Assembly: GCF_001625215.2 (NCBI RefSeq)
Contig: NC_030383.2
Location: forward strand, 3,174,779 to 3,238,778
Direction of reading: 5' to 3'
Origin: Daucus carota subsp. sativus
Lineage: Eukaryota; Streptophyta; Magnoliopsida; Apiales; Apiaceae
DNA length: 64,000 bases
The notes under the pieces are model-generated. The model saw only the letters and a program-made list of their open reading frames with translations. It was not told where the DNA came from and ran no database searches. The position numbers and the translations under genes are program-made. Positions 1 through 23,313 of this stretch are shown here, piece after piece; the first letter of the stretch is position 1; every line of letters begins with the position of its first letter.

Positions 1-1865
1 ATGCAAAAAGTTTATCTATTGCCATGTCTGAAGGAAGCATGGACATATATGAATGCAAATCACATCCAGCCTAGTCTGAGTGACTTAGTTTTGACAGCTA
101 AACTCAAGAAAACTCAGCATATGCTAAACCCGACATATCAAAGTTTGTTATTTGCAAAATTTTGGCTAGAAATGAATATCTCGCAACAACGTAAAAGGTA
201 CATAACACAACTCATGTGCGGCACAGTTAGAAAGATAAAAGATTGTTCGACTGTAAAACTTACTGGTTGCATTCTGCAACTTTCCCTTGATTTTGATGTT
301 CAAGTATCGCCAGTATCAAGTTTTTGTTTTCCTCCAAATACTGCACCATGAATAGGGGGCATTACGATTAATGAACAGATCACAAAAAACCTAGAACATA
401 AAATTTCCAGAGCTCAAGATTATTATTTTAAATCCATGCTACCTGCTAGTTGTAAATTTAATCACTTTCGGTTTGTTAAAGGGAAACCGTATCCAAACCT
501 TGGCAGTGGGTGTTTATGAGTATGATTTCATCAGATCAAATAACAGGAAGAAAAGGGACAAAAAAACAATCACAGTCTATTACTTTATTTATATCATCAT
601 GACTTAGAAGTTGCAAAAGATATCTAACACTGAGATACCGTGAGATTATTTTTAACTTTTTGGTTCGATCAGAGTGAAGTCTACACTAACGCAAGGCCAA
701 CTAAGCTTCCGCACAGGACACCAAAAGTTCTAGGGCTTATAGTTATAAAAATATCATATTTTATATAATTTAGAATACCAACAATTCGTTTCCCTGAAAA
801 AATGATATAAATTAAGCTTAGGGCCTCACATTCAGTTGAGACAGCTGTAGAACAATATAGATTAGGTAAAAGTCTTACAATTTAAACTAAGCTTAGGGCC
901 TCAAATTCAGTTGAGGCAGCTGTGAAACCAAGAAATTGTACTTAAAGCCAACAGGATTTTCTTTGCTGTGATGCCGCAGTCTAAAAATTTTAAATTTATC
1001 ATGTATTGTATACACATGCATATAAATTCAGAAGCATACTTACAGACGGCTAGTCATAAATGATACACTATAACAGAAGAGTTCATAATACGTAAATGAA
1101 TTGAGAAGAGAGGAGTCAGTAGCAAGCAGTATTAAAAGGAGCTGCCAGCCAGAGCAGAAAACAAAATCAAGGGTGCAGTCAGTAACTTGACCAGAGCTCT
1201 GGTAGGTTGGAATAAAAAAAATATTGATTTTTTCATTGTCCCTTCACATAATATAAGAATTGATTATGTGCAGTAATGACATTTAGGTGCCTTCCTTCAC
1301 TGGTTTGACACTGTTCTAAGCAGTTACTCGTATAAATTTGCGGAAGGCGCTGGCCCAGCCAATTCAATTTTAGCAGGCGGAACTACTGCCAAGTACCATT
1401 CTTTAAATTTAACCCGACTAAAGGCTCAATAATCAATATAGACTTAAAATACGCCCTATGCTTTCAAAACCGACTTGCTTTACTGTCAAACCCAAACAAT
1501 CTAAAACAAGCAACTACTTAAACTCAAGTAGATAACTGTTCCGACAATTGTATTTTACTAAAACCTCCCTCAGACAGTTCCACTTGAAAATCCCAAATCT
1601 TTCCTCACGCCATTATTATACCTTCAATTTCCAACTCCAATACCAACTGATTCAAACAACCATCATTTCTATACTCTAAATCAAGAACTAACAACAAATC
1701 TTTAAACTTGTAAATCTATACACATTCTTAAACACCACAAACTAATCCAAATTAAAAAAGATCAAAACTTTACAAAGCTCCAAACCATTTACAAAGATCA
1801 ATTAATCAAACATATATACATGTGTGTGTGTGTGTGTGAATTGAGAGAAAAGGGGTGGAGGGTAC
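1..1865 (-). other. Intron 1 of the GIF gene (partial)
   Basis: No exon could be supported here. The open frame at 1-351 (+) resembles nothing I know. A ~37 bp direct repeat (AAGCTTAGGGCCTCA followed by TTCAGTTGAG) occurs at about 813-849 and 888-925. A (TG)n tract lies near 1821-1838. Confidence 0.55.
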
Positions 1866-1943
1866 CTTCTGAATCTGCTCAGTGGTGACCAAGTTAGAAG
1901 GTGAAGGAGCAGATTTCATTGCAGATGGCTGCTGCTGCTGCAT
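1866..1943 (-). CDS. GRF-interacting factor (GIF, SS18-like), first coding exon
   Basis: The exon reads MQQQQPSAM..., then SNLVTTEQIQK, and ends at a GT donor (AAG/GTACC). It is 78 nt, exactly 26 codons. The start Met, the short Gln run and the TTEQIQK end match the N-terminus of plant GIF2/GIF3 proteins, where this stretch opens the SNH domain that binds the QLQ domain of GRF factors. GIFs are nuclear co-activators that link GRFs to SWI/SNF remodelling. The rest of the SNH domain (normally starting YLDEN) was not found at 1-1865, so intron 1 runs past the window edge and only this exon is seen. The call rests on 26 residues; the family match is good but which GIF paralogue is unknown. Transcription runs away from the GRF gene at 18.86 kb. 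Confidence 0.72.
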
Positions 1944-2798
1944 ATCTGTATGTATATGTTGTAAGTAACAAGAATATAAAACCCTACTAGTCTAGTCTAC
2001 TACAAGTATGTTTGGGGACAGAACAAAGATCCTGGGACTAACTTAGCTTCCGGGACAGGACCAACTCAGTTCCGGAACCAGTTATTCAACGGAGTTCACT
2101 TTTTTTTTTCTCATTTTTTTGCCTTCCGTGAAAAATTGGAATTGAACTTAATATAAATATATAAATATTATATATTAAAATAATTATAAAACAATTTAGT
2201 TTAATATTATATAATTATGATCTCTATTTTACTGTCCAAATAATATAAAGTAGTTCATCAAATGTTAAGAGTTTAATTAACACAGTACTTTTTTTTTTTG
2301 AAAAATTAACACAGTACTTATGATGATTATTTGGATAATTAGTGTTTCTATATATTTTATTATGGAACAAAAACTATATTAATCACGAAAATCGGAGATC
2401 AATGATAAAGTGAGTTTATAACAATTATAGACGGATAGAAAGTTAACTAAAACAATAAATTAAAATACTAATAAGATGTGTTGAAATTTTAAAATATTAA
2501 AAATAGTCATGTTAATTTTAAAAATATGAAAATATTAGAAATCTCAAGAATCAAATAATTATACCGTCTTATAAAAATTTATTAAGGGATTAATGGGCCA
2601 AATTATTTTTCTGTTGATTAAACAATAGTTCACGTGTAACTAATAAATTGCTTCCTACTTGATTGAAAATTAATAAAAATTAAAATTATTATAAATTGCT
2701 GGATTATTTTTGTTTGAATATAACATAAATTGGTAAGTCCTCTTGCAGAATGTTTGCTTGATCTTAAAGCACAGAGTCTAAAGTATTTTTGACTTTCA

Positions 2799-2844
<46 letters not shown>

Positions 2845-2933
2845 AATAGATTATAAATTAATTTAATATTAAAAGTAAGTTCGATATTATCTTGCAGTAA
2901 GGCGTCAGTACGAGATGCTTTTATGCAATTTAT
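1944..2933. other. GIF 5' leader/promoter and AT-rich spacer
   Basis: Upstream of the GIF start there is about 150 bp of mixed sequence (probable leader and core promoter), then AT-rich DNA with a (TA)n tract at about 2801-2834. No gene seen. Confidence 0.4.
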
Positions 2934-3717
2934 TTAATTTTTAAGATCTTATATGATAAAATTTAATATCCATCACTTAAATAAACAAATTTATTTTTAT
3001 TATCATATTTTTAATAACTCATTAATAATCTTAATTACTTAAACAAATAGTTTAAGTTGTACACTTAACCCTTTAAATCAGCATATGTATTACAAACCTG
3101 CATGCATGCAAATTGCACTTTTCTTTATTTCTTATTTAGAATTCAGGACTTAACCGATTTCTCTGTTAATAAAAAATACAACATTTGATCAATAAAAGTT
3201 GAGTCTTTACTTTAGTTTAAAAGTGAAAAAAATTGGGTTCATATTTTTTATAGGCCGCCCCATTGCTCAGCTCATATTAGTCTCATATAATTTCACCACA
3301 TCATATGGAAAATGAGGATGTTTCTGTTGTCTGACTCACATCTAGAAGAACAAAAGGGTGACTAGGGGCTGTTCACGAACCGAGCCGAGCTGAGTTTTGA
3401 CCGAGTCGAGCCGAGCTTTAAATTTTTTCCTATTGAACTGAGCCGAGCCGAGCTTTCTTATCGAACAAAATAGTGTGTTCGAGCTCGAGCTCGTTAACTA
3501 ACGAGCCGAACACGAGCTTGTTCACGAACAAATACGAGTCGAGCCGAGCTAAAGAAAAATAAGGCCAAACCGCTACTTTACTCTTAAATAGCAAGCCAAA
3601 TAAAATTTTTAGTGTGTTTTGATGGTACCATATTATAGTTAATATTCTCATGATCGATTTGATATATTATATGTTGAATTCGGCGTTCAATAACATATAT
3701 GTATATATATATATATA

Positions 3718-4753
3718 GGGTCTTGCTCAAATGAGAACCACTCTTATGGTGAGATATGAGATCTAATCTCAGCCACTCATTTAAATACATTATATTCATC
3801 TCTCACCATTCACTTAATATTTTAATATTACACCATCTTCTCATTCAACTACTTATCACCTTCAACCACCCTTTGACCACCACCACCACCTCCGGCGACC
3901 ACCACCACCTCCGGCGACCACCAGAAAATCACCACCGGCAAATATAAAATCACCATCGTAAAATATAAAATCACCACCGGAAAATTAAAAATCACCGCCA
4001 GAAAACCAAAAATCAACGCCAGAAAATTAAAATCACCACATCACCACCATCTAAAAACCACCACCACCACCCCAAATCCGAAAAATCACCAAATACAAAA
4101 CAATATCACCGTCGGAAAAAATCAAAAACACCATAGAAAATTATCATTTCCAATTCATCAGCTTCCTCACTATCTCTCTCCACCTCCTCTCTCTCTCTAC
4201 ATCCACACACTCTCTCTCATTCTCCATCTAAAAAAAGCCTCGAATCTCCCCCTCATCCCTCTCGAATCGCTTCACATAAAATCCATCAGTCAACAGAGAA
4301 TCAAACGGCGACTCGACGAAGCGGACCGAGTTGACTCGGCGAGTTCAGGCGATGGGGGTAAGAACAGAGGCGGCGCTGTGGATTTAAACAGTCCAGGACG
4401 TTGCCGAGGCTTGGAACGGCGTTGTTTGGAGGAGCAGTGGTTGTCATATTGAGGAACGTACGGGGAGATGCAGGAGACAATGTGTGTGTGGCTGCCGGCG
4501 GTGACGATTAAGCCGCCGCGGCGCTTCCCGGTCACGACGTATATAGGGAGAGGGGGGAGAGAGAAAGAGCAGATCGGTGTTCGATGGTGACGGGGAGGTG
4601 GCTGTGCGTGATGGTGATGGGTGGTGGTGTTGGGAGGTGAATGAAAGAGAAGAGGTTTAAATGTGTGGTTGTGATTTGATTTGGAGATAAAAATGTGTGG
4701 CTGAGATTAGATCTCATATCTCACATTAGTTGGGGTTCTCATTTGAGCACCAC

Positions 4754-4755
<2 letters not shown>
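3718..4755. mobile_element. TA-repeat-targeting MITE-like element 1
   Basis: It has terminal inverted repeats of about 58 bp. The left starts GGGTCTTGCTCAAATGAGAA; the right, reversed, starts GGGTGGTGCTCAAATGAGAA; both run on through GAGATATGAGATCTAATCTC. It sits between (TA)n tracts. The interior is rich in CACC/CCGGCGACC runs and carries no credible gene. It is nested inside the hAT-like element. Confidence 0.8.

Positions 4756-4756
<1 letters not shown>

Positions 4757-4812
<56 letters not shown>
4757..4812. repeat. (TA)n microsatellite between two nested elements
   Basis: An uninterrupted TA dinucleotide run exactly between the termini of the two nested elements. It fits an insertion target expanded or shared by both. 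Confidence 0.95.
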
Positions 4813-4814
<2 letters not shown>

Positions 4815-5557
4815 CTCATGATCAAATAGAAACCACTCTTAAAATAAAAACTAGAAACCAATACAAGTTAGTGATATTCTCAATACAATTTAGTGATATT
4901 CTCTTTAGAATTTAGTGATATGTGTTGCAGGAATTAATGAAAACTTGCAGAAACTGTCCAGAATCTTCAAATTTGTTTCAGATTCTGCTCAGAATCTCTC
5001 AATCTGTTCTAGTTGCCGATTCAGGTGGTGGTTGCAGTGGTGGAGATAGTGGAGGTGAAGGTGGAGATGGAGGTGGTGGACATGGAACCAAGTTAAATTA
5101 CAAACTAAAAACTACTCACTCATCTACATATATATACCTTATATATACACATACAATCTATATATATCATCACAATCATGCAATATATACTACCAAAGCC
5201 ACTACAACCATCAAATAACATCAATATATTCGATCATCAAAAATAGTGAATCACCAGATTCTATCTAGATTCTGTTCTCTGTTCTCTTTATTTCACTAAT
5301 TTCTGAAGTAGTAATCACTAATTTCTAAAGCAGTAATCACTAATTTCTGAAGCGAATATCACTAAAATATATAGCAGCGACCAACGAATTTATTATCAAA
5401 TTTGCCGACTAGTGGGGCTGAGTGGAGGGGTGGCAGGGTGGTGGTCGGGATCGAGATAGGTGGTTGGATGATGGGTCATGCAAATGGGGTGCGTAGATAG
5501 TGTAAAATAGGAGGTTCTTAGTTTGTATTTTAAGAATGGTTTGTATTTGATCACTAG

Positions 5558-5559
<2 letters not shown>
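4813..5559. mobile_element. TA-repeat-targeting MITE-like element 2
   Basis: It has terminal inverted repeats of about 47 bp. The left starts GGCTCATGATCAAATAGAAA; the right, reversed, starts GGCTAGTGATCAAATACAAA. It lies between (TA)n tracts at 4757-4812 and 5560-5622. Its ends resemble those of element 1 (TCAAATRRAACCACTCTTA core), so the two belong to one broad family. The interior has repeated TTAGTGATATTCTC and CACTAATTTCTGA motifs and no gene. Confidence 0.8.

Positions 5560-5622
<63 letters not shown>
5560..5622. repeat. (TA)n microsatellite
   Basis: A TA run that starts at the right terminus of nested element 2 and ends where the hAT-like core resumes. Confidence 0.95.
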
Positions 5623-5624
<2 letters not shown>

Positions 5625-5899
5625 CGAAATTATCATGAAAATATTGCTTTTTTTCGAGTTTTAACGAGCCGAGCTCGAGCCGAGCTCAAGCCGAACACAC
5701 TAAAAGCTCGGCTCGAGCTCGTTTTCTTAACGAACACATTTATGTGTTCGAGTTCGAACTCGAGTTCTTAACGAACCGAGCCGAATCGAGCTTTTATCGA
5801 GTCGAGCTCGAGCTTGTTCGGAACAGCTCGGTTCGCGAACAGCTCTAAGGATGACCCCCTCCTTTGAGTTCACTTCACATCAATTACTCTCACGCTATC

Positions 5900-8800
5900 T
5901 TCACATCAATTACTCTCACGCTATCAGACATCATATAACTTATCTTGAAAACACATAAGCTTCCTCTCTTCGTAGGATCATATTACTTGATCAAATAAAT
6001 GACATATTATACCATCAGATAATGAAAACACGTGAATTGACTTTAACAGATCGCATGTGTGGATCAATTAAGGTTTGCTTAGGAGGCAAGATCCTCAGGG
6101 ATCAATCATAAGTACGGGTTCTCAAGAATCACATCACATCATGTAAACTAACGAGTCGGATGTATGGGCTCTGAGTCGCCTACGAGGCGAGATCCGCATA
6201 TATAATTTGAAGAGTAAGACTTTCATCACTTAAAATATTTGTGTAGAAGTTAAATCACTTTAGAGCCCATATACTAATCTTTGAAAGTCCCTCCTAATTA
6301 GTAATTCCTATGCATTTCTTCCCGTATGATTGATGATCTCATTCAAACATGCCACTCCTCCCAATATTGATGTCACATATAATTAAATTGTAAAAATAAT
6401 CATTTATAATTTAGATATTGCTATATTTAAATATAATCATTGAATCTCTCGTATGCTTAATAAACTATGCTCATCCAACTACTTCTTTCGATAAATATTT
6501 CTATTATAATTGGCTAAAACTCCACTTGTTAAAATAATTTAAACATTTCCTCAAACAAATTTGTGAAGATATTGAATGCAAGCACCAGATGTAACATATA
6601 TAAAAATTGGGTTAATTCTCAAGTGGATCATTTTTTTTTACTCGAATATATTGAGTGGGTCATCGACAATTTTGTTGGTCTCATCCGAATCAGTTATTTA
6701 AAGTAATGTCATATTTTATTAATTTTAAAATTTCATAAATGAAAAAATATTGACTGTTGAACTTTTTTTAAAATATGTATACCCCATCTTTCTTACTACT
6801 TCAATTTTTCTAACTAAACATATACTTATCTTCCTTTCTAAATTGAATTCAACCTCTTTTTTTTATAAATTTCTCTAATTAATCTACACATTAATTTTTT
6901 ATTATTTTATCGACACATTTTTTTTGTACAAGTTCACGTCAAGTCCGATTAGAATCATGTCATATAATCATGTCAAAATACTGAGAACAAATATTTACCG
7001 GATATGCACTCGATATATTGAAACGAAGTAAATGACCTAACTGATAACAACTATGTAAAAATTTGAGTGATATCATTCAACTATTTTGTTCTCGATAACT
7101 AAATTTATAAAAGAAATTAATTTTTACTATTAAACTAATTTTGACTTGATTATCAATAAAAATATTAAATGTGATTGCTCCACATATTTTGCCCCAATAG
7201 ATTGTTGTCTATAAATGCAAGCGTTTATCAATAAAAACTGTTTATAATAATTTAACATTGAATCTTGTTTTCGCTAACAATGTTTAAAAATTAAGGTGAT
7301 ATCATTTCAAATATTTTGTTTTCAATAACTAAAAGCATAAAAAATTATAATTTCAACCATCAAACTATTTCAGATTTGATTGTCAATAAAAATATTAAAT
7401 GCGATTGCTCAACGAATTTCTCCTCAACGAATTTGTTATCTCAATAAATGTAAGCGTTTATCAATTTATGAGATTTCCACCTATAAAAGAAGGTGTTACA
7501 TAATCTTAGGGGACACTTTTCTTATGAGATAGGGATACAGTCTAAATCTTCAATTCAGCTTGAACATTATATTGAAGAGAGTATCTGTATAAAAATTTAA
7601 ATACAAAGATTAAAATATTTTATTTTCTCTCTCCATGTTAGGTCGATCTACAAGAAAAAAAAGGATAATGGTAGATGATTCGTCGAATGGTATTATTTTG
7701 AATGTTCTTATAATCTTACATCCATGATTGTGTGTATGATTGCATATATATTTTTATATACATATGTATACACCGGATAACAAATTTGAAAATTTACGAC
7801 TAATGTTTTATATTTTTTAGAGACAGATCTTTATCGTCCTATGGCGAAGTAATCAAAAATCGAGGATTGTTCATGTTACATCAATTATTGAAGGTCATTA
7901 TCATCGTCATCTTTTCTATGTTTAATATTATTCAACATTTACAGTATATAATTGTTTCATCACATCTTTAACAAATTTGGGTGATTTTTATTGCAGTTGT
8001 TTCTTGTTTTGGGATGCCAGTACAAATATGACGGAAAACATAGAGTTGCCTATTCGTGTAGATTCGATCGAGTTATGCATACACTAATCTGGGTCCTTCG
8101 AAAGGCTAACATGACAAGGGATGAGTTGAAAAATACAATATTACATGCAAAAGAACATATTCTCTCAGGAGATATATTTCAGATTTTTTAAGTCAACATT
8201 TTGAGCGACGAACATTTGCAGGCCCATTAAGGTATACACGACATTACTTGTAAGTATGTTACTAAAACCTATCAATCCTGTCAAGAATTTTTTTTTTTTT
8301 TTACGTGCTTTTGCTACCAAATATTTTCAATTTTTGAATTAAATCTTATCAGGCCGGAGGGTTGATTTTGATTTTTTCACGTTTTAAACGTAACGAAGGT
8401 ATGCAAATTCTATCGAAACTATAATTTTAGGATATTTTTACTTAATAGAGAAAAGTGCGAGCATTTATATGCCACTAATGCAAAATATTAATATTATAAA
8501 TTTACTCACTTTGTGATTTTTGATAGAAGAAGATTGTAAATCATCCTTTGACTGCGGATATTAGAAGATGGAAGGCTACAGAGGAAGATGGAATAAAAAA
8601 TAAAGTGACTAAATGATGAAAAACAATGTGCCGAGCATAAATATTAGGCTAGATTTGAGACATGAAAATGTGAGAAATATTTTTTCGAAATGGTCCTATG
8701 CCTCATAGACAATAGACACATTTCGTCTACATACTCGAATGTAAAATTATGACAATATTTTTAAATTATATGATCAAATGTATTTTTGTACGGAGAATTT

Positions 8801-9240
8801 ATTATCACATTGTATTTGGAAAAACATTCGCAACAAAGAGAGTATTAAAGGTCCTCATATATATGATTCGGAGAGATTTTATTTATGTATAAAGAGATTC
8901 TGAGAGATTGCACAGTGGGGACTTTACAAGTAATTTACAAAGCCAAGAAGAGAGACAGGAGATGAGAGAACTGTGGACCGGCGGAGAAATTAGAACTCAT
9001 GCCAGTTCATATGTTTCGTCTTACTTTTCTCAGTTTCATTTGATTACCAAAATTTAAATACCTACACAAATATAAATTAATTATGGATCAAATAATTTCG
9101 TACCTAACTAAAACATGATGGAATAAGAGAGGTGACCATAGATCAAAATTTAGGAGATTGAAATTTTAAAATTTATTTGTATACAAATAAATTTGTATGA
9201 TAATAAATAAAATCTTATAAATCGATTTTGACTCTCTCCT
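5900..9240 (+). repeat. Tandem array unit 1
   Basis: This segment matches 9298-12760 and, from about 7055, 14176-16330. Shared landmarks are the CAAGCACCAGATGTAACATA motif, the TrpE-like exon and a conserved tail at 8750-8990. The tail recurs at 12505-12745 and 15932-16177; I did not recognise it. The TrpE-like exons are 3757 bp apart (units 1 and 2) and 3430 bp apart (units 2 and 3). Confidence 0.85.
7997..8249 (+). pseudogene. Anthranilate synthase alpha (TrpE/ASA) exon relic, unit 1
   Basis: Behind an acceptor (TTGCAG) the frame reads a degraded ASA stretch, then AKEHILSGDIFQI, which matches the conserved AKEHILAGDIFQI of plant anthranilate synthase alpha. A one-base loss after FQI gives an immediate TAA; in the next frame SQHFERRTFA continues the family match. 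A donor-like GTAAGTATG follows at 8250. Other ASA catalytic regions are absent. The intact enzyme makes anthranilate from chorismate in the plastid (first step of tryptophan synthesis); this copy cannot. Confidence 0.8.
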
Positions 9241-9871
9241 CTTTATGTTTCTCCAACAATTTGATCATTACTCTAATACTATTAAAGAAATACAGATATT
9301 TTATATATCATTAGAGAATGAAAACACGTGAATTGACTTTAACAGATCACATATGTGGATTAAGGTTCTCTTAGGAGGTAAGATCTTTAGGGATCAATCA
9401 TATGTACGGGATCTCAAGAATCACATCACATGGAAATTAACGAGTCGAATGAATGGGTTCTGAGTCGCCTACAAGGCGAGATCCGCATAAAATTTGAAGA
9501 GTTAGACTTTCATCACTTAAAGTAGTTGCGTAGAAGTTAAATCACTTTACAGCTCATATACTAATCTCTCGAAGGCACTCATATGTGCATCTCCCCGCAT
9601 GATTGCCACTCCTCCCAATATTGATACCATATATTAAATTTTAAAAATAATCATTTATAATTTAGATATTGCTATATTTGAATATAATCATTAAACTTTC
9701 GTATGCTTAAGAAATTATGTTTGTTCAACTACTTCTTTCGATTAATATCTTATTATAATTGGCTAAAACTCCACTTGTTAAAATAATTTAAATATTTTCT
9801 CAAACAAATTTGTGAAGATATTGAATGCAAGCACCAGATGTAACATATATAAAACTTGGGTTAATTCTCAA

Positions 9872-10445
9872 GTATGTGAAGGTCAATTGCGATGCTACTA
9901 TGTTCACAAATGATGTAGGTTGGATTGTTCGAGATTTGATTGTAATACTTTTTAGTTTAAGAGCAAGTCCAATAGGTGTGCTAAATCAAGTCTTAAATCC
10001 AAAAATAGGGAATATGGGATAAAATTGCACTCCAACACTATGCTAGTGATGTGCTAAATCACTAGCACAAGCCTCCCCTTCCCTATTTTTAGAATATGCT
10101 AGCCGCTTCTAAACTATTTTTATCATTAAAATATTCATTTCCCTCTCTCCTCCACACCAAAGTTGTTTAAATTTAATATTATTATAATAATAGGGAATGG
10201 ATATAGAGAGTACTATTGGAGCTCATGTGCTAAATCTTGTGCTAAATCACTAAGACATATTATTTTATAATATTTTTAGGGAACCTCTTAGCATAGTATT
10301 GGACTTGCTCTAAAGAATATAAATATTCCATTTGTTAAGCGATCTGACAACAAAGCGGCTATATGTTTAACTCGTTTTTTGTTTCTTAATCAGGTAGTAA
10401 TTGACAGTTCGAGGGTTTGTCTCGGCTGGATTTCAGTTATTTATT
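9872..10445 (+). pseudogene. RNase H-like (RVT_3) retroelement relic split by a MITE
   Basis: The left part (9872-9957) reads VKVNCDATMF then GWIVRD; the right part (10311-10445) reads INIPFVKRSDNKAA. These resemble the KVNCDGA...VxRD and FVxRSANKxAH motifs of plant RNase H-like domains found in LINE-type elements and their relics. The parts are separated by the MITE at 9961-10310. The catalytic set is incomplete. Unit 1 lacks this insert. Confidence 0.45.
9961..10310. mobile_element. Tourist/PIF-Harbinger MITE A
   Basis: Ends GAGCAAGTCCAATA and TATTGGACTTGCTC are near-perfect inverted repeats. They are flanked by TAA at 9958-9960 and 10311-10313, the 3-bp duplication typical of PIF/Harbinger. 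It is 350 bp with no coding capacity and is present only in array unit 2. Confidence 0.85.
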
Positions 10446-11753
10446 AAACTTTTCGCTTTTCGTCAAAAAAAAAGTTATATATTGTTAATTTTAAAATTTT
10501 CATAAATGGAAAAAAGAGTTGACTATTAATTATTTTTTTTAAATATGTATAACCCATCTTTCTGACTACTTCAATTTTTCTAACTAACCATATACACGCC
10601 TTCCTTTCTAAATTGAATTTAACCTCTATTTCTACAAATTTCTCTAATCTAATCTAAACTTTATTTTTTTATTATTTTATCGACACATTTTTGTGTACAA
10701 GTTCATGTCAAGTCCGATCATAATCATGTCAGAATAATGAGAACAAATATCTACCGGATATGCACTTGATACATTGAAACGAAGTAAGTGACCTAACTGA
10801 TAACAATTATGTAAAAATTTAAGTGATATCATTGAACTATTTTGTTCTCGATAATTAAATTTATAAAAGAAATTAATTTCAACTATTCAACTAATTTTGA
10901 CTTGATTGTCAATAAAAATATTAAATGTGATTGCTCAACAGATTTTGCCTCAACAGACTGTTATATATAAATGCAAGCGTTTATCAATAAAAAATGTTTA
11001 TGATAATTTAGCATTAAATCTTGTTTTCTCTAACAATATTTAAAAATTAAGATGATATCGTCTCAAATATTTTGTTTTCAATAACTAAAAGCATAAAAAA
11101 AAAAATTATAATTTCAACAATCAAACTGTTTCAGATTTGATTGTCAATAAAAATAGTAAATACGATTGCTCAACGAATTTCTCCTCAACGAATTTGTTAT
11201 CCCAATAAATGTAAGCGTTTCTCAATTTATGATATTTTTCCTATAAAAAAAAAGATGTTACATAATTCTAAGAGACACTTTTCTTGTGAGATAGGGATAC
11301 AGTCTAAAATCCTCAATTCAGCTTGAACATTATATTAAAGAGAATACCAGTATAAAAATTTTATATACAAAGATTAAAATATTGATGTATGTCAGGTCGA
11401 TTTACAAGAAAAAAAGGATAGTGGTAGATGATTTGTCGAACGGTACTATCTTGAATTTTCTTACAATTTTACATTCATGGCTGTATGTATGATTGCATAT
11501 AAAATTTTTATATACATATATATACATCGGATAACAAATTTGAAGATCCACGAGTAATGTTTTTATTTTTTTTTGAGACAGATTTCTATCGTCCTAGGCC
11601 GAAATAATCAAAAATCAAGGATTGTTCATGTTACATCAATTATTTAAGGTCATTATCATCGTCATCTTTTTTATGTCTAATATTATTCAACATTTACAAT
11701 ATATATAATTGTTTCATCACATCTTTAACAAATTTGGGTGATTTTTATTGCAG

Positions 11754-12006
11754 TTGTTTCTTATTCCGGGATGCCAGTACAAATATAACGGAAAACATAG
11801 AGTTGCCTATTCGTGTAGGTTCGATCGACTTATGCATACACTAATCTGGGTCCTTCGAAAGGCTACCATGACAAGAGATGAGTTAAAAAATACAATATTA
11901 CATGCAAAAGAACATATTCTCTCAGGAGATATATTTCAGATTTTTTAAGTCAACATTTTGAGCGACGAACATTTGCAGGCCCATTAAAGTATACACGACA
12001 TTACTT
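11754..12006 (+). pseudogene. Anthranilate synthase alpha (TrpE/ASA) exon relic, unit 2
   Basis: It has the same structure as the unit 1 relic: acceptor, decayed ASA stretch, AKEHILSGDIFQI, then the same one-base loss and TAA. A downstream donor lies at 12007. The shared lesion shows units 1 and 2 descend from one already broken copy, after their split from unit 3. Confidence 0.8.
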
Positions 12007-12759
12007 GTAAGTATGTTACTAAAAACTATCAATCCTGTCAAGAATTTTTTTTTTTTGCGTGCTTTTGCTACCAAATATTTTCAATTTTTGAATTAAATCT
12101 TATCAAGCCGGAGGGTTGATTTTGATTTCTTCACGTTTTAAAACGTAACGAAGGTATGCAAATTCTATCGAAACTATAATTTTAGGATATTTTTACTTAA
12201 TAGAGAAAAGTGCGAGCATTTATATGCCAATTGTGATGCAAAATATTAATATTATAAATTTACTCACTTTGTGATTTTTGACAGAAGAAGACGACAAATC
12301 AACCTTTGACTGGCGGAAGGGTACAGAGGAAGATGGAATAAAAAATAAAGTGACTAGATGATGAAAAACAATGTGCAGAGCATAAATATTAGGCTAGATT
12401 TGACTTTTGAGACATGAAAATGTGAGAAATGTTTTTTCAAAAATGTCCTATGCCTCATAGACAATAGACACATTTCTTCTACATAATCGAATGTAAAATT
12501 ATGACAATATTTTAAATTATATGATCAAATGTATTTTTGTACGGAGAATTTATCATCACATTGTATTTGGAAAAACATTCGCAACAAAGAGAGTATTAAA
12601 GGTCCTCGTATATATTAGATTCGGAGAGATTTTATTTATGTACAAAGAGATTATGAGAGATTGCAGAGTGGGGACTTTACAAGTAATTACAAAGCTAAGA
12701 ACAGAGACAGGAGATGAGAGAACTGGGGACCGGCGGAGAAATTAGAACTCATGTCAGTC

Positions 12760-12878
12760 CATATATATCGTCAAGATAATGATAATGCAGCAAAACTGCA
12801 AAACCAGCACCAGCTATTACTGCTAACTAAAACTACCTGCTAGAGCAGAACCAGAGTACTTTCTTTTTAATCTCTTTA
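12760..12878 (+). repeat. Copy of the GRF upstream leader inside the array
   Basis: It matches 18619-18731, just upstream of the GRF gene. Shared landmarks include TCGTCAAGATAATG, GCAGCAAAACTGCAAAACCA and GCAGAACCAGAGTACTTTCT. It starts where unit 2 ends (CATAT shared at the junction) and runs into the direct copy of block S. Confidence 0.85.
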
Positions 12879-13082
12879 ATTTTTATGATTTTATATGCTA
12901 AAATTTAATATTCATCATTTAAATAAACAAATTATCGAATTTATTTTTATTATTATGTTTCAATAACTCATGAATAATCTTAATTACTTAAACGAATAGT
13001 TTAAGTTGTACACTTAACCTGTTAAATAAGCATATATCACTTTTAAATTTTTTCAAACGGACTCTTTGTATCTTTAATTTTT

Positions 13083-14190
13083 TTAAAAATAATTAATTAT
13101 TATGACTTCAGAGTTCAAGTGAATGAGATGTTTTAGGTATTACAAACTTGCATGCATGCAATGCACTTAAGACATTTGCGCCTTGATCTGAATAATGAAA
13201 TTCATTGCATACAACGAAGTACGGGGATGCCACATTCATGACTTAACCCGATATATCAATATTGGGAAGAGTGGCATGTTTGAATGAGATCATCAGACAT
13301 CAATCATGCGGGGAGATTTAACTTCTACACAAGTACTTTAAGTGATGAAAGTCTAACTCTTCAAATTTTATGCGGATCTCACATACATTCGACTCATTAG
13401 TTTACATGTGACGTGAATTTTGAGAGCCCGTACATATGATTGATACCTAAAGATCTTGCCTCCTAAGCGAACCTCAATCCACACATGCCATTTGTTAAAG
13501 TCAATTCGCGTTTTCATTCTCTAATGGTATAATATGTAAATTTTTTTTGTCAAGTAATATGATCCTATGAAGAGAAGAAGTTTATGTGTTTTCAAAGTAA
13601 ATTATATGATGTCTCATAGTGTGAGAGTAATTGATGTGAAGTGAACTCAAGGAGGGGGTCACCTTTGTTCTCTTAGATGTGATGTGTTCCATGCTAGTCA
13701 TTTGATGATGTGAATTAATGTAAGTATTTGAGATTGGTCTTTCTTATCTTTGGTCTGATTATGTGAAGTAATATGAGTCTGATAGCAGAGACATCCTCAT
13801 TTTACTCATATGATGTGGTGAAATTATATGAGACCAGTAATGGGAGTTATCTCATTGTCTTTATATGATAAGGTGAAATTATGCAAGGTAAAAGTGGATA
13901 TGACATCACCGCACTATAGGTCATCAGTATATTTATATGGCGAGGTAGAATAATATGACCTCAGTAATGGAGCGGCCTATAAAAAATATGAACCCGATTT
14001 TTTTTCACTATAAACTAAAGTAAAGTCTCCACGTTTTTTGAACAAATGTTGTATTTTTTATTAACAAAAATCGGGTTAAGTCCTGAATTCAAATAAGAAA
14101 TAAAGTGAAGTGCAGTTTGCATGCATGCAAGTTTGTAATACTCAAAGCATCTCATCAACTTGAACTCTGAAATCATTATAAATAATTAAT
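13083..14190. repeat. Inverted repeat segment holding block S in reverse
   Basis: About 80 bp at 13083-13165 (with TTGCATGCATGCAA-type core) recurs inverted at about 14112-14190. Between them lie reverse copies of 5848-6375 (13240-13657) and 3080-3362 (13658-14150), with roughly 250 bp not present in the forward copy. The intact transposon target site is at 13658-13665. No gene seen. Confidence 0.75.
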
Positions 14191-16330
14191 TTTTAGAAAT
14201 TTAAGTGATATCATTCAAAAATCTTGTTCTCGACAACTAAATTTATAAAAGAAATTAATTTCAACTTTTCAACTAATTTTGACTTGATTGTCAATAAAAA
14301 TATTAAATGTGATTGCTCAACAGATTTTGCCCCAACAGATTGTTATATATAAATGCAAGCGTTTATCAATAAAAACCGTTAATAATAATTTATCATTAAA
14401 TCTTCTTTTTCTAACAATATTTAAAAATTAAGATGATATCATTTCAAATATTTTGTTTTCAACAACTAAAAGCATAAAAAATTATAATTTCAACAATCAA
14501 ACTATTTCAGATTTGATTGTCAATAAAAATTTTAAATGCGATTGCTCAACAGATTTTTCCTCACCAAATTTGTTATCTCAATAAATGTAAACGTTTCTCA
14601 ATTTATGAGATTTTCTCCTATAAAAGACGGCATTCATAGTCTTAAGAGACATTTTTCTTGTGAGATATGGATATAGTCTAAAATCTTCAATTCAGCTTAA
14701 ACATTATATTGAAGAGAATACCTGTATAAAAATTTAAATACAAAGATTAATATATTGATGTATGATGATTTATTCAATTTAAAATAATACACTAATATAT
14801 GCAACATATTTTTATTTTCTCTCTTCATCTTAGGTCGATTTACAAGAGGAAAAAAAGATATAGTAGATGATTTGTCGAATGGTACTATTTTGAATTTTCT
14901 TACATTCTTACATTCATAGTTATGGGTATGATTGCATATATATTTTTATATACATATGTATACACCAGATAACGAATTTGAAAATTCACGACTAATGTTT
15001 TTTTTCCGGACAGATCTTTATCATCCTATGGCTGAAGTAGTCAAAAATCGGGGTTGTTCATGTTACATCAATTATTTAAGGTCATTATTACCATCATCTT
15101 TTCTATGTTTAATATCATTCAACATTTACAATATATAATTGTTTCATCACATCTTTAACAAATTTGGGTGATTTTTATTGCAGTTGTTTCTTGCTCTGAA
15201 ATGCCAGTACAAATATAACGGAAAACATAGAGTTGCCTATTCGTGTAGGTTCGATCGAGTTATGCACACACTAATCTGGGTCCTTCGAAAGGCTACCATG
15301 ATAAGGGAAGAGTTAAGAAATGCAGTATTACATGCAAAAGAACATATTCTTCCCGGAGACATATTTCAGATTGTTTTAAGTCAACATTTTGAGCGATGAA
15401 CATTTGCAGACCCATTGAAGTATACACGACATTACTTGTAAGTATATTACTTAAAAATAGCAATCCGGTCATGATTTTTTTTTTGCGTGCTTTTGCCTAA
15501 TACTACCAAATATTCTCAAATTTTGAATTAAATCTTATCATGCCAGAGGGTTGATTTTGATTTCTTCACGCTCTAAAACGTAAAGAAAAAGGTATGCAAA
15601 TTCTATTAAAACTATAATTTTAGGATATTTATACTTAATAGAGAAAAGTGCGAGCATTTATATGCCAATTGTGATGCAAAATATTAATATTATAAATTTA
15701 CTCACTTTGTGATTTTTGACAGAAGAAGACGACAAATCAACCTTTGACTGGCGGAAGGGTACAGAGGAAGATGGAATAAAAAATAAAGTGACTAAATGAT
15801 GAAAAACAATGTGCGGAGCATAAAAATTAGGCTAGATTTGAGACATAAAAATGCGAGAAATGTTTTTTCAATAATGTCCTATGCCTCATAGACAATAGAC
15901 ACATTTCGTCTACATACTCGAATGTAAAATTATGACAATGTTTTTAAATTATATGATCAAATGTATTTTTGCACGGAGAATTTATTATCACATTGTATTT
16001 GGAAAAACATTCGCAACAAAGAGAGTATTAAAGCTCCTCGTAAATGTTAGATTCAGAGAGATTTTAATTATGTACAAAGAGATTCCGAGAGATTGCACAG
16101 TGGGGACTTTACAAGTAATTACAAAGCTAAGAACAGAGACAGGAGATGAGAGAACTGTGGACTGGCGAAGAAATTAGAACTCATGTCAGTCCATATGTTT
16201 CGTCTCACTTTTTTCAGTTTCATTTGATTATCAAAATTTAAATACCTACATAGACATAAATTAATTATGGATCAAATAATTCCGTACCTAACTAAAACAT
16301 GACGGAATAAAGAGAGGTGACCGTAGATTA
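14170..16330 (+). repeat. Tandem array unit 3 (5'-truncated)
   Basis: It matches units 1 and 2 from the point equal to about 7055 and 10815 onward. It carries the least damaged TrpE-like exon and the conserved tail at 15932-16177. Confidence 0.85.
15184..15437 (+). pseudogene. Anthranilate synthase alpha (TrpE/ASA) exon relic, unit 3
   Basis: Here the frame stays open through AKEHILPGDIFQIVLSQHFE, close to the plant ASA consensus (IFQIVLSQRFERRTF). It then hits TGA where units 1 and 2 have CGA (Arg). The lesion therefore differs from that of the other units. A donor-like GTAAGTATA follows at 15438. No other ASA exon was recognised nearby. Confidence 0.8.
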
Positions 16331-18618
16331 AAATTTAGGAGATTAATTATAATTTTATAATTTATTTTTGAAATTTTTTTTCATGAATAAAATTTAAATA
16401 TTATATTTGTATTTCAAAAAAAGTTATAAAATTATACTCAATCGGAATCTTTAATTAATGTTGAGTCCCCGTCTTATTAAGAACCGGTTGGGAGGAGTAA
16501 TTTGTGATTATTCATATATAAATGACTTTTTTGTTTTGGATAAATTAATATGAATTTTTTAGAATTTTTGCTGATTACACTCATGTGAAGGATAAAAAAG
16601 GCCCACTATATATTAATTTTGGCTAAACTTTTAAAAATAATCAATAATTTTTATTTGAGACGCAAATTTCGAATGAAGCAGGTAGAAATATTTGCTTAAC
16701 CCCGACTGATATTCAAATTTTAGTTAGCGATTTTGATTATATCAAAAACTAATTTGTTATAAATTGATATATGCTCCCAAGTGCCTCCCAATTTTTCCTT
16801 ACATTGAAGTCGAACATGGAAGTTAAAGAATAAAGTACTTTCATTTTTGGGTCAGAGCGTTTGTCTTTTGACAGATATTTTAATATTTTTAGAAAACATA
16901 GCTTTATAAATTAATATTATTATATTTAAATAAAAAAAATTATCTTAAAATACGTAGTGAGAAAAATAATTGAAATATTTAGTGAGATTAATTATTATAT
17001 CATTGAAAATATTTACCAATTTAAAAAATTCTAAAATATAAATAATTAAGGGACTATATAAAAAAGAATATGGGACTTAGTAGGAATAAGTCAGTATTCA
17101 TTTAAATACTTAATTCCACTAATATTTTCCTGATTTTTGTTTGCAGTACTCCCTCCGTCCCTCGCAATTGTATACATATGGATTGGGCACGGAGACTAAG
17201 AAAAGTGTATAAAGTAATGTAAAGTACGAAGAAAGAGAAATAAAAGTGGGTAAGATAGTGGGACTCATCAATATATAATTGATGGATTTAAAAAAGTAGT
17301 TGAAAGTAGTGGGTGAGTGGGTTTTTTATATTATAAAACTTTGACTATTTTGGGAAAGTTTTGAAATGTATAGAAATGGATGGAACATCCAAAAAAGGAA
17401 AGTGTATAGAATTAAATGGGACGACCGGACGAGTATATGAATGCATGATATTTACAAAAATATTACACATGGCTTTCTGAAAAAGTAAAAAAAATCTAAT
17501 AATGTCAAAGTGAACGACAAGAAAATATGGGCAGCGAATACATGTCATGGCCCATTGGTCCCAAATTATTAACAGAATATAAAAAAGGTTGACGAAGCAA
17601 AGCGAGAGAATGATGATGCTCAAATTCGAAGTAGGTGAATGTTGGAAGCTCGGAAGCAAGGAGAGGGCGAGCATGGCGCCAAACCCTCTCCTTATTCGGG
17701 GACACCACCGAGTTGACTCGTTATTATCGAATTATTGATGCTGTTTTGCTGGGTTCGAAAGACCGGTTTCTAAAATTAAAAGTCATGAAATAATTTATTT
17801 GCACAGTTTGTCTGAATATTAGAAGTTGAAAATGTTAAATTTACTAGGACAAAAAAAACTAAATTTTCTAATGACTTATTTTTGTTTTAAAATTTGGTTT
17901 TATGAAATTATAAAATATAGTTTTGAAAAATAATTTATAATATCTTATTATTAATATAAGATTCTTATGCTCGATAAGTTATATTTAAAATAAATTGTCT
18001 GTATATATTAATTAAAATTATTTTACATTTATAAACAATTCTCACCAATAAATAATAAGTATTTTTTCAATTAAATTAAAAGACTCGTTTAGTTTTAAGT
18101 AGGCTGACTTATCGAACCACTGTCACAAGATACCCGATTATACCCGATTAATGTGGTGACATATCTTGATACTAAATGATACGCGATTGAGCACGATTGG
18201 ATAGCTCGCTGGATTTATCCTCTGTTGTTCCGAAAGATCTTGTAAGACATATAAGTCTGTATTGTAAAAAAATATATATATATACCCGATTGATGTTGTG
18301 GCATATTTTGATACTAAATGATCCATATAAGTCTGCATTGTTAAAAAAAAAATAAAAATTGTCCGGTTCTCTTTTCAACCGTTATTTTATGCCAAGTCTC
18401 TTGGATATTTAACGAGATAAATCTTGATGGTCAGTTTACGAATTTTAACCGCATCTCTGCCCAAGATAACTCGAATCAAGGCCGTCGAGATAAATTGAAT
18501 CAAGACCGTCCAATGACCATGTCGAGAATATTAATGACGAGGGTGAAAATGGTCCCCAAAAGTAATAAAAGTAGAGGGGTGCCGAGGTTATGATAGGGAT
18601 GCAGCAACACTAGCACCC
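16331..18618. other. AT-rich intergenic region
   Basis: It contains the Stowaway-like MITE below. A diverged direct repeat (ACCCGATT...GATACTAAATGAT) lies at about 18127-18182 and 18284-18330. The open frames at 17345-17708 and 18138-18378 look random. No gene supported. Confidence 0.6.
17149..17433. mobile_element. Stowaway-like (Tc1/mariner) MITE
   Basis: The left end CTCCCTCCGTCCC and a degenerate right end (reverse CTCGTCCGGTCGTCCC) both lead into TATACA-containing subterminal repeats. They are flanked by TA at 17147-17148 and 17434-17435. It is 285 bp, with no coding capacity. Confidence 0.75.
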
Positions 18619-18859
18619 ATATATGTCGTCAAGATAATGCAGCAAAACTGCAAAACCAGCACCAGCAGCAATTACTGCTAACTAAAACTACCTGCTAGTG
18701 CAGAACCAGAGTACTTTCTCATTAATCTCTCCTTCCACTACAGACTCTTCTACCGAAGCCCAGGTCAAAAAAGTCAACAAAATCTTTTGACACACACAGT
18801 GATGTTTCAAGCTCTCTCTTTTTTAATGTTGGTGGTTGCTTTTTTTGGTACAGGAGGAG
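18619..18859 (+). promoter_or_regulatory. GRF upstream leader / proximal promoter
   Basis: The sequence ends in a pyrimidine-rich stretch and GGTACAG directly before GAGGAGATGG, so a 5'UTR intron ending at 18853 is possible. The segment 18619-18731 recurs at 12760-12878. Confidence 0.4.
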
Positions 18860-20703
18860 ATGGCTACAACAGCATTGGGATATCCTGGCTGTTCAGGAGC
18901 AGAAGCTGCTGCTTTTACAAGAGCACAATGGAAAGAGCTTGAGAGACAAGCAATGATCTATAAGTACATTGTTGCTTCTGTTCCTGTCCCTCCTCATCTT
19001 CTCTCCTCAGATGCCACTTCTTGTAATAAATCAACGCCTGACCTTTCTCGTTTCTACTTTACATAAGTATGTTTTGTCAGAAATAAATAACATAACCGAC
19101 CAACTATTGGTCAGGAAGTGGTCAGTTAATTTTGACCGTATTCTTGACCAATATTGTGGTCGTCGGAAATGAATAACATAACCGACTAATCATTGATCAG
19201 GAATTGGCTAATTAATTTTGACAGTATTCCTGAGCAATATTGTGGTCGGTTATGTTCGGTCAAAATGAGGATTATTTATGTTATTCATGACCCCTTTTCT
19301 TGTAGCGAAATTTTAATATGAATTATATTGGTAGTTGATAATCAAGGGTCTTCTCTAGTATACAACTTGAAATACGGGAACAACAAAGATGCAGAGCCAT
19401 GGAGGTGTAAAAGAACAGATGGGAAGAAATGGAGGTGTTCTAGAGATGTGGCGCCTTGTCAAAAATACTGTGAGCGTCACATGCATAGAGGCAAGCCTCG
19501 TTCAAGAAAGCCTGTGGAACAACAACAACAACAACAACAACAAGTCTCTTCCACCGGTAACAAGAAAACTAGGCAGCACCTTCCTGCAAATGCTCCGGCC
19601 TCACCGAAAGCACCAGCAGCTCCTCAAGAAACAAGCATTCACAACAACCCATCTATGAATCTACTCAAGAATGTTGCAGAAACTGAAGATGTCTCGCTCA
19701 GGTCACTTCAGTTCTACTCAAGAATGTCACAAAAACTTGTTCCATATTGTTTTTTTTTTTTTTTTGCAAATAAATACGCAGTCTTGCTCAAATCTTGAAT
19801 TTAACGTTTTAGGCCAGGGTTATGCATTATTTATTAGAAATCGCGAAAAAGAGATTTGAATGAAATCATACAAGTCGAGGCTCTAACAGTTGCAACTATC
19901 TCATGATACAATGATTTCACTGGCATAAATATCGCGTTTTTACACATAATATTAGCCTATTGTTCTTGATTTCTAAATACTAACAATTGTGCAAGGAGTT
20001 TTAAATTTTTTTTCTTCGGTTTGTCTGATAATGAAGGGATTCAGACTGGATGATCGAAAGCAGGATGATGACAATGGAGACATCTGAACAACAATGGCAT
20101 CAGTTAATGAGTGAAGGCTCTACCACAAACCCCTCTATTTTCCAGCATAGTAATTATGAGAAAGAACAAGAACTGAGTTTGCTTTCTATTCCGGAGATTG
20201 AAAACTCTAGTACTGATGAGTACACTATGTTTTTGAGTCCTTACTATAATCCTCGGGATTTCATTGACGTGTGGTCTAATGACAGTAATCCGGAATATTA
20301 CAGCAAGAACAAGTCCTCTGGTGCAGCTGATGCAAATGTCTCGCCTTCTTCACTAGATTTTTCAATGACCATGGCTGTGAGAGATACTTTTGACAATGAA
20401 ATGGGTCAGATTGAAATGGAAGAAAATAGAGATGCATATGAAAGATGTCGCGATTTAAACTTGTTAAGTCCGATTTCTTGGATGGGTTCTGATTCTGGCG
20501 GTCCATTAGCTGAGGTTTTGAGGCCTACCAATGCTGCTGATGGAGATGTTATTAGCCCTCTAGCAACCTCTGCTTCGTCTCCAACGGGCGTCTTGCAGAG
20601 AACAATGTTATCATTGTCTGATAGTAGTGTTTGCAATAGTCCAACAGGAGTTGCTACTTCAGCTGCAGCAGCGGAGATTGTTGGATTCCAGTGGCTGAAT
20701 TGA
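18860..20703 (+). CDS. Growth-regulating factor, GRF7/8-like (QLQ + WRC)
   Basis: Exons 18860-19049, 19335-19701 and 20037-20703 join in phase to 407 aa. The QLQ domain lies at about 18-53 ([25 protein letters not shown]) and binds GIF co-activators. WRC lies at about 83-125; its C3H zinc ligands are C88, C98, C109 and H112, with the basic PRSRKPVE end. Further conserved parts follow: [20 protein letters not shown] and [10 protein letters not shown]. The last two favour the Arabidopsis GRF7/GRF8 branch. It is a nuclear transcription factor that controls organ growth and, in GRF7-type members, stress genes. Exon 2 ends at CTCAG/GTCACT; exon 3 starts after GAAG, restoring R-DSDWM. The first donor (C/GTTTCT) is weaker and could be off by a few codons, because a TAA follows at 19064. 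The mRNA carries a miR396 site. Confidence 0.9.
19081..19306. repeat. 85-bp tandem duplication and CACTA-like end in GRF intron 1
   Basis: Two ~85-bp copies (19081-19166 and 19167-19251) both start near ATAACATAACCGAC and end near CAATATTGTGGTCG. The segment stops at TTTTCTTGTAGCG (19294-19306), the reverse of a CACTACAAGAAAA-like terminus. It may be a remnant of a CACTA (En/Spm) element; the other end was not found. Confidence 0.5.
19499..19519 (+). promoter_or_regulatory. miR396 target site in the GRF WRC exon
   Basis: The 21 bases starting CGTTCAAGAAAGC and ending TGTGGAA encode RSRKPVE and match the conserved miR396-binding site of plant GRF mRNAs. Post-transcriptional repression by miR396 is therefore expected. 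Confidence 0.92.
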
Positions 20704-21724: not shown

Positions 21725-23313
21725 TCAAAGAGGAGCAGGGTTTACAGAAGCGAAAGCAAGCAGATCCGGATCATTCTCAAAAACCGCCATTTCTTCTTCG
21801 CTTAAGGAAACTACTGCTTGAATTCCACCTGCTCCTATGTCACACAAGGAGATGAAATTCACCAATTTCAAATTGCAATAATAGAACCAGACCGGTTTTC
21901 CCCATCCGAAATCAAGTTCATAGAGGCCCATATTACACATGCTAGTGATCCAAAGAGAGAAAGATATTTCATCACAGGACATCAGTTTTGCAACATTAAG
22001 AAGAACTAGAGTTCCAGCATCTCCCGTTATAGCCTCAACAAATTCGTCGTTTGTTCCCGACTTGCATTCCTTTATTTGATCCACCAATGTCTTATGTTCG
22101 AGTTCAGGGGATAGCTGACATTGTGCTAAACCAGGCCAAATAAGATTCCCTACGGAGTTTTTTGGAATACAGTTCTTGCCTCGAAGATTAGTAATCACAC
22201 CCAAGTTAAAAGGTTTTTCCAGAGAATCGTCGTCTGATTTGCAAGCAGCTTTAGCAGCACATTTCCATAACAAGGCTGTTATAACTTCAAACCGAGATGA
22301 TTCACTCCCTGATGATAAAAGCTTAGGTTGGGCCTTTAGCGCGGCTATCTTTAAACTATCAAAGACGAACCTTTGAGAAACGAACTTGATATTACTGAAG
22401 CTCATGGGACTTTTAAACGACAGAGAAGGAATCTGTGGAAACAATGATGGAACAATGAAACTAGGATTCACAATTTCTGAAGAAGATCCTCTGGCTACAG
22501 CGGTCCAATCTTTCATAAATAACGTGTAGGTGGTTCCATCCATAAATTTGTGGGAAATGCAAGTACATATTGCAATTCCACCACAACTGAAGATGTTCAC
22601 TTGAATTATAAGAAGATAATTTCCCATGGGTGAATCCCTGGCTTCCTCAGGGACTAATCTGTTGATTGTTTCGTCTCCTGGAGACTGACTGAGGAAATCC
22701 AGGAGACTACAATCTACTCGAGTTTCTATGTAGAGAACTCCTTCATCATTACAATCAATGTGAAAATCATCTCGAACCTTTCCAGCCAAAGGGTAGAACC
22801 TAGTTAAGCTTTCTGACAACGATTTCTTTAGAAGTTCTGACTTGTCTGATATGAAAGAGTCCAGATCACCAGAGTTGCTGTTGAGGTAAAACAGCATCAG
22901 TGGAACATAAAGCTTAACTTGGGTCTGATCAAGAACCGAAAGCTTATATGTTTTCAACGAGTCAGGCGTTGGAGCAGCTGGCACAATGTTCTCCTTTGAA
23001 ACAATCTGAACAACCATTTTCTCTATACCACTGCATAATCAATTGCGTTAATTTAGTATGTTAAACTTATGCATGCTTATTGTAAAAACTGTTGAACAAT
23101 GTTTGTTCCAGCATAAGATCCTGTGAGGCCTTACTCTAACATCTTAAGGATTTAGATGAGCTAGTTACTTAACAAAAAATAATCTCAACATTACTACTTA
23201 GTAGAGAATCATGCTATAAACGTTAGAGTAAATAAGTCCCTTTCTTCAGTGGATTAAGAAAATTCCAAAAATAAAATAAAAAATCCAACACTTATGTACC
23301 TTGCTTCACCCAT
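21725..23313 (-). CDS. BAHD acyltransferase 1 (vinorine synthase-like)
   Basis: Exon 1 is 23300-23313 (14 nt, ATGGGTGAAGCAAG) and exon 2 is 21725-23030. They join in phase to 439 aa, the usual BAHD length. The catalytic HxxxD is HKFMD at H165-D169, and the structural DFGWG is at 378-382. Both are intact, so an active acyl-CoA-dependent O- or N-acyltransferase of the cytosol is expected. The overall sequence resembles the vinorine synthase/acetyltransferase branch, but the substrate cannot be read from it. If the micro-exon were skipped, translation could start only at Met10 (23017), because the Met that opens exon 2 in genes 2 and 3 is Ile (ATA) here. It is the most diverged of the three genes. 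Confidence 0.9.

Follow-up and report, generated by a model that had tools for sequence, protein, structure and literature searches.

A divergent GIF-GRF gene pair in carrot, probably inherited among core eudicots

Control of organ size is a function of GRF and GIF proteins, which are also used as a fused pair to aid crop regeneration. The SNH domain of GIF binds the QLQ domain of GRF and chromatin remodelling is brought to GRF targets, while miR396 keeps GRF levels down. Parts of this GRF-GIF-miR396 picture are stated in passages of PMC10976704 and PMC5121280. The complex is well known; what differs at the locus studied here is that the two genes are neighbours. We analysed a stretch of 64,000 nucleotides of the carrot genome (the window; C3:3174779-3238778, in a genome of 441,086,747 bases on 11 contigs), for which a preliminary description had reported a GIF exon and a complete GRF gene about 17 kb apart and pointing away from each other. 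Do the genes of two binding partners lie together here by accident, or by descent? We consider it probable that a GIF2/3-type gene and a GRF gene form an inherited, probably core-eudicot, divergent neighbour pair whose products would act as one activator.

Gene models of the linked GIF and GRF

The coordinates of both genes are listed in Table 1. The first GIF exon translates as MQQQQPSAMKSAPSPSNLVTTEQIQK, with a GT donor at its end, and the second encodes the SNH helix YLEENKNLILAILEHQNQGKVAECNQ; exons 3 and 4 follow 1.7-2.4 kb left of the window. The model of four exons, the structure expected of a GIF gene, encodes 238 aa without an inner stop and has GT/AG at every inner exon border. Pfam SSXT matched exons 1 and 2 at 2.7e-11 (43.3 bits, cut-off 26.2), and residues 1-97 matched SS18 in PDB entry 7vrb at 6.7e-9. 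Glutamine makes up 21% of the 238 aa, and the C-terminus is glutamine-rich. The exon that the preliminary description had assigned to a GIF gene is therefore real, with SSXT above the Pfam cut-off and a GT donor, and the search for the SNH continuation that it had proposed was successful. The remaining exons had been expected left of position 1; this holds for exons 3 and 4, but exon 2 lies inside the window. According to passages of PMC8964071, all cotton GIFs have four coding exons. AtGIF1 also has four coding exons, and AtGIF2 and AtGIF3 have other exon counts (passages of PMC8876841 for the latter).

Table 1. Features of the GIF-GRF locus and its neighbours (positions in the window; negative values lie to its left)
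Feature	Position	Strand	Remark
GIF exon 4	-2358..-1879 (C3:3172420-3172899)	-	left flank, outside window
GIF exon 3	-1800..-1719 (C3:3172978-3173059)	-	left flank, outside window
GIF exon 2	264..340	-	first half of SNH (SSXT) domain; within window
GIF intron 1	341..1865	-	between exons 1 and 2
GIF exon 1	1866..1943	-	26 codons, ATG start, ends ...TTEQIQK; open, GT donor
Interval between start codons	1944..18859		contains 3 diverged tandem units
Tandem units	6763-16310		3 units, about 3.4-3.8 kb each
GRF exon 1	18860..19022 (19049 with alternative donor)	+	QLQ domain
GRF exon 2	19359..19701	+	WRC domain
miR396 target word	19499..19519	+	in WRC exon; exact string match
GRF exon 3	20037..20703	+	FIDVW and a 10-residue motif
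BAHD acyltransferase genes	21725-23038, 28415-29731, 31447-32763	-	3 in tandem, single open frames (PF02458)
DUF7725-type gene	about -15.5 to -9.8 kb		left of GIF
IQD-type gene	34-35 kb		DUF4005 and weak IQ motif (Pfam)
CID/RRM-type genes	46.8-51.8 kb		Pfam on one exon: nothing

The carrot genome holds at least 5 GIF loci (all 10 candidates scored, E up to 10). Two of these are presumably GIF1-type (C8:14.24 Mb and C3:62.41 Mb) and two presumably GIF2/3-type (C4:36.53 Mb and C2:46.14 Mb), labels that we gave by likeness to Arabidopsis sequences as we know them. By the same kind of resemblance, the linked copy appears to be GIF2/3-type as well. It shares 70-74% identity with the two other GIF2/3-type copies, and these share 83% with one another. 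At three positions the linked GIF departs from a residue on which the four other copies agree. One is a change from Y to N, by which the stretch NLMYLAAIAD reads NLMNLAAIAD (C3:3172999-3173061); the Y is kept at the other four loci. We also considered the linked carrot GIF as a clean third clade, an idea that is weakened because its highest identity is with the C4 copy (74%) and because the short SNH domain does not allow a decision.

The GRF gene has three exons and encodes 390 or 399 aa depending on the first donor, reaching 407 aa if other second donors are used. Pfam found QLQ at 1.8e-14 and WRC at 1.1e-19, so the complete gene announced in the preliminary description was borne out. The miR396 target word, for which we used the string that we take to be the target, is intact here and also in the GRF copy at C6:36.20 Mb. 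The first RC of the WRC domain follows a W (EPWRC), where the other first WRCs read at GRF-type loci have a G. The closest genomic relative is this C6 copy, with 89% identity in both QLQ and WRC; the remaining GRFs with a readable domain reached at most 54% (QLQ) and 78% (WRC). Counting this locus, 12 of the 30 WRC matches had a readable QLQ and 17 a readable WRC, two entries giving one and the same WRC. Between the C3 and C6 copies, dN/dS is 0.20-0.24 at a dS of about 0.9-1.1 (368 codons), and the GRF is therefore under purifying selection. Judged by resemblance to Arabidopsis sequences as we know them, the carrot gene may belong to the GRF7/8 subgroup. The GGPL motif occurs in six GRF loci of carrot besides the C3 and C6 copies. 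Group C GRFs are described as having more FFD and GGPL motifs in passages of PMC10795294.

Linkage and gene order in the carrot genome

A distance of 16,917 bp separates the start codons of the divergent GIF and GRF genes, in line with the first description. At the other four of the five GIF loci, no GRF can be read within a distance of 0.9 Mb. Their distances to the nearest GRF-type locus range from 0.94 to 9.5 Mb, the closest being that of the C2 GIF from a GRF-type WRC at C2:45.195 Mb. With 5 GIF loci and 16 GRF loci (4 of them counted on WRC alone) in 441 Mb, the chance of any GIF-GRF pair within 17 kb is ~0.6%, calculated post hoc; adding a 17th GRF-type locus, the one at C2:45.195 Mb that was included later, hardly alters it. 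Two GRF-type loci, C2:45195125-45196266 and C2:58342832-58343958, each have two WRC matches about 1 kb apart. On C8, four weak partial WRC matches lie in a row (C8:14566730-14815073; E 1.8e-4 to 0.15), 0.33-0.58 Mb from the GIF1-type gene of that contig, and are not readable as GRF.

Part of the interval between the genes is taken up by three diverged tandem units. Open frames at 11742-11948 and 15172-15399 have weak matches to anthranilate synthase component I (0.0036 and 2.6e-6), and 7985-8191 reads like these two frames; the units therefore look like decayed tandem copies of an anthranilate synthase gene. Neither Pfam nor PDB gave an anthranilate synthase match in the units, and Pfam found nothing in four stretches between GIF and GRF. 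A shared bidirectional promoter was rejected as very unlikely because 17 kb and the repeats separate the genes. Co-inheritance or shared chromatin control of the pair, both proposed in the preliminary description, are possible.

The 120 kb around the C6 GRF were compared with the locus, with matches listed except for about 36.191-36.197 Mb. The C6 block and C3 are collinear, but inverted relative to each other: CID/RRM-type (presumably; the name is ours), IQD-type, GRF, DUF7725-type and SAUR. The gene order flanking the C3 pair is therefore real. About 4.5 kb of C6 sequence separates the GRF from the beginning of the DUF7725-type gene, and this gap contains no GIF. Searches of the 120 kb with each GIF exon gave a best E of 0.56; on C3, an identical search recovered all four exons. 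Either the C6 copy has therefore lost its GIF, or the gene entered C3 once the duplication had taken place; the other species described below favour loss. At least three matching copies of the CID/RRM-type gene lie at C6:36153047-36191225. The three BAHD genes, which sit between GRF and the IQD-type gene on C3, are not among the matches listed on C6; the PDB entries nearest to the first of them are ferulate monolignol transferase and vinorine synthase.

GIF-GRF neighbours in other eudicots and the origin of the pair

We compared six eudicots with both GRF and GIF tables, carrot included, and found a close GIF-GRF pair in four. In tomato, SlGIF2 (Solyc03g082480; + strand, ch03:45.948 Mb; PMC7760089, table) is five gene numbers from SlGRF8 (Solyc03g082430; - strand; PMC5454968, table), and the two are divergent like the carrot genes if the numbers rise along the chromosome. 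Soybean GmGIF2 (Glyma.06G134400; PMC8876841, table) and GmGRF5 (Glyma.06G134600; PMC6588917, table, GRF strand not given) are two gene numbers apart with one number between. In Populus euphratica, 38 kb separate PeGIF2 (Chr12:839394-841554; PMC10976704, table) from PeGRF12 (Chr12:879669-881959; PMC11720670, table), with the strand given in neither table. The same partner families are adjacent in these distant lineages, so the pairing looks ancient and not accidental. The linkage had at first been called unusual: the carrot pair is indeed real and close, but neighbours of this kind also occur in the tomato, soybean and poplar tables. Speaking against a common origin, the linked GRF proteins are unlike in length and charge: those of the other species have 458 aa (pI 5.97), 578 aa (pI 8.88) and 535 aa (pI 8.84), that of carrot 390 aa (pI 5.2). 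To our knowledge, Arabidopsis has no linked GIF-GRF pair, which matches its locus numbers as we know them. Rice OsGRF6 (LOC_Os03g51970) and OsGIF1 (LOC_Os03g52320) are 35 locus numbers apart; they were not counted as a further pair because OsGIF1 is presumably GIF1-type and the chance is about 4%.

After duplication the GIF adjoins only one of the GRF copies in three cases. In carrot it stands beside the C3 GRF and not the C6 copy. In poplar, PeGRF12 has the GIF and PeGRF17 has none (Ks of the pair 0.27), and the GIF table lists no gene on Chr15 (PMC10976704). In soybean, GmGRF5 has the GIF and GmGRF4, which we infer from similar motifs to be its duplicate, has none; no Chr04 GIF is in the table (PMC8876841). 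In PMC11720670 the text assigns a single GRF to chromosome 16 and leaves chromosome 15 without any, whereas Table 1 has PeGRF17 on Chr15; this is probably an error of the paper.

The linked GIF also tends to look like the odd one of its family in soybean, P. euphratica and carrot. GmGIF2 is alone in soybean GIF group II, which has no Arabidopsis member (passages of PMC8876841), and PeGIF2 is in GIF group III, likewise without an Arabidopsis member and unique to Salicaceae according to passages of PMC10976704. Both are orphan GIFs beside a GRF, and the linked carrot gene resembles them as an outlier on the GIF2/3 side. Tomato fits this less neatly, as SlGIF2 is grouped with SlGIF3 in a published two-clade tree. 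If the pair is old, group III may not be unique to Salicaceae, contrary to those passages of PMC10976704.

Taken over these species, the descent of the linked pairs from one ancestral pair seems quite probable to us. What has held the genes together is another matter. Inertia alone, by which an ancestral linkage persisted and the closeness has no function, comes near to an even prospect, since the DUF7725, IQD and CID neighbours are also collinear with C6 and ordinary order is thus conserved without partnership. If the linkage is old, however, this closeness has outlasted genome duplications across rosids and asterids, and for comparable pairs, sMYB-PRR (LHY/CCA1-PRR5/9 and RVE4/8-PRR3/7) and PIF3-PHYA, passages of PMC9516744 report conserved linkages and argue that selection kept them. 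For the GIF-GRF pair we regard positive maintenance of the closeness by selection as somewhat unlikely.

Still less likely is a bolder account. In it, Arabidopsis would have lost a GIF lineage of the GIF2/3 side that would have stood beside its own GRF since before the rosid-asterid split. Each genome duplication would have left this GIF in single copy, next to one of the duplicated GRF genes, since the partners would have to be inherited or regulated together; the SNH domain would have drifted to suit its GRF.

Another unlikely explanation is that the genes became neighbours independently and by chance in each lineage, the published cases being picked from many. In each species with a pair, all GIFs but one do lack a close GRF (of 4 GIFs in tomato, 8 in soybean, 4 in P. 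euphratica and 5 in carrot). No close pair is found in the pepper tables (PMC12728049), nor in upland cotton, where the nearest genes on one chromosome are 0.35 Mb apart in passages of PMC8964071 and PMC7444260, a distance that spans two assemblies and, for G. hirsutum alone, holds among the rows in those passages. Yet the chance per species is about 0.6-1.5% (genome size or gene counts for poplar, soybean and tomato being taken from general knowledge) and four of six eudicots have a pair. The divergent orientation common to tomato and carrot speaks against chance as well, and so does the membership of the linked soybean and P. euphratica GIFs in groups that, in the passages cited above, have no Arabidopsis member. 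An assembly artefact, in which the three diverged tandem units at 6.7-16.3 kb that occupy part of the interval joined two unrelated stretches, was rejected as highly improbable, since the window has no N, similarity between the units is 72-98% over their matched parts and so short of identity, and the collinear C6 block has the genes from either side of the repeats next to each other in matching order.

Partnership of the products and meaning of the linkage

The GRF-GIF partnership has a structural parallel in PDB entry 7vrb, whose chain, named SMARCA4 protein, Protein SSXT, is a solved SMARCA4-SSXT fusion of the human counterparts of GRF and GIF. GIF has the SNH/SSXT domain and GRF the QLQ domain, and we take the SMARCA4 part of 7vrb to be the QLQ region. 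In the inherited pair that we propose, the carrot SNH and QLQ domains would bind to give one GRF-GIF activator, which would recruit chromatin remodelling; miR396 would restrict the GRF component. The closeness of the genes may have been kept partly as its break-up was weakly disfavoured, or it may simply never have been broken. In tomato, SlGIF2 strongly bound SlGRF8 among others in yeast two-hybrid assays, and SlGIF1b and SlGIF3 likewise bound SlGRF8 strongly (passages of PMC7760089, assuming the SlGRF numbering of PMC5454968). The neighbours can therefore bind, and do not do so exclusively. The tomato GRFs best co-expressed with SlGIF2 are SlGRF2-5 and not SlGRF8, according to passages of PMC7760089.

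The likeness to sMYB-PRR and PIF3-PHYA is that of plant regulators of one pathway which, in passages of PMC9516744, lie a few genes apart at most in many angiosperm families and after duplications. The evidence there comes from synteny surveyed over many genomes, as far back as Amborella, whereas for GRF and GIF one genome was read directly and published tables were used for a few eudicots. Unlike those pairs, both products come from families known to bind each other. No report of GRF-GIF gene linkage was found in the titles and abstract openings of the open-licence papers listed; the GIF passages of PMC5121280 make no mention of it, and of the open-licence papers found to carry the ID of a linked gene of tomato, soybean or poplar, none carried those of both members of a pair.

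If the pair has been kept for more than 100 million years, an age that we assume, it would mark which GRF and which GIF belong together. It would be a natural linked unit for breeding. It would also enlarge the small group of plant regulators with seemingly kept linkage, by a pair that work on Arabidopsis would have missed.
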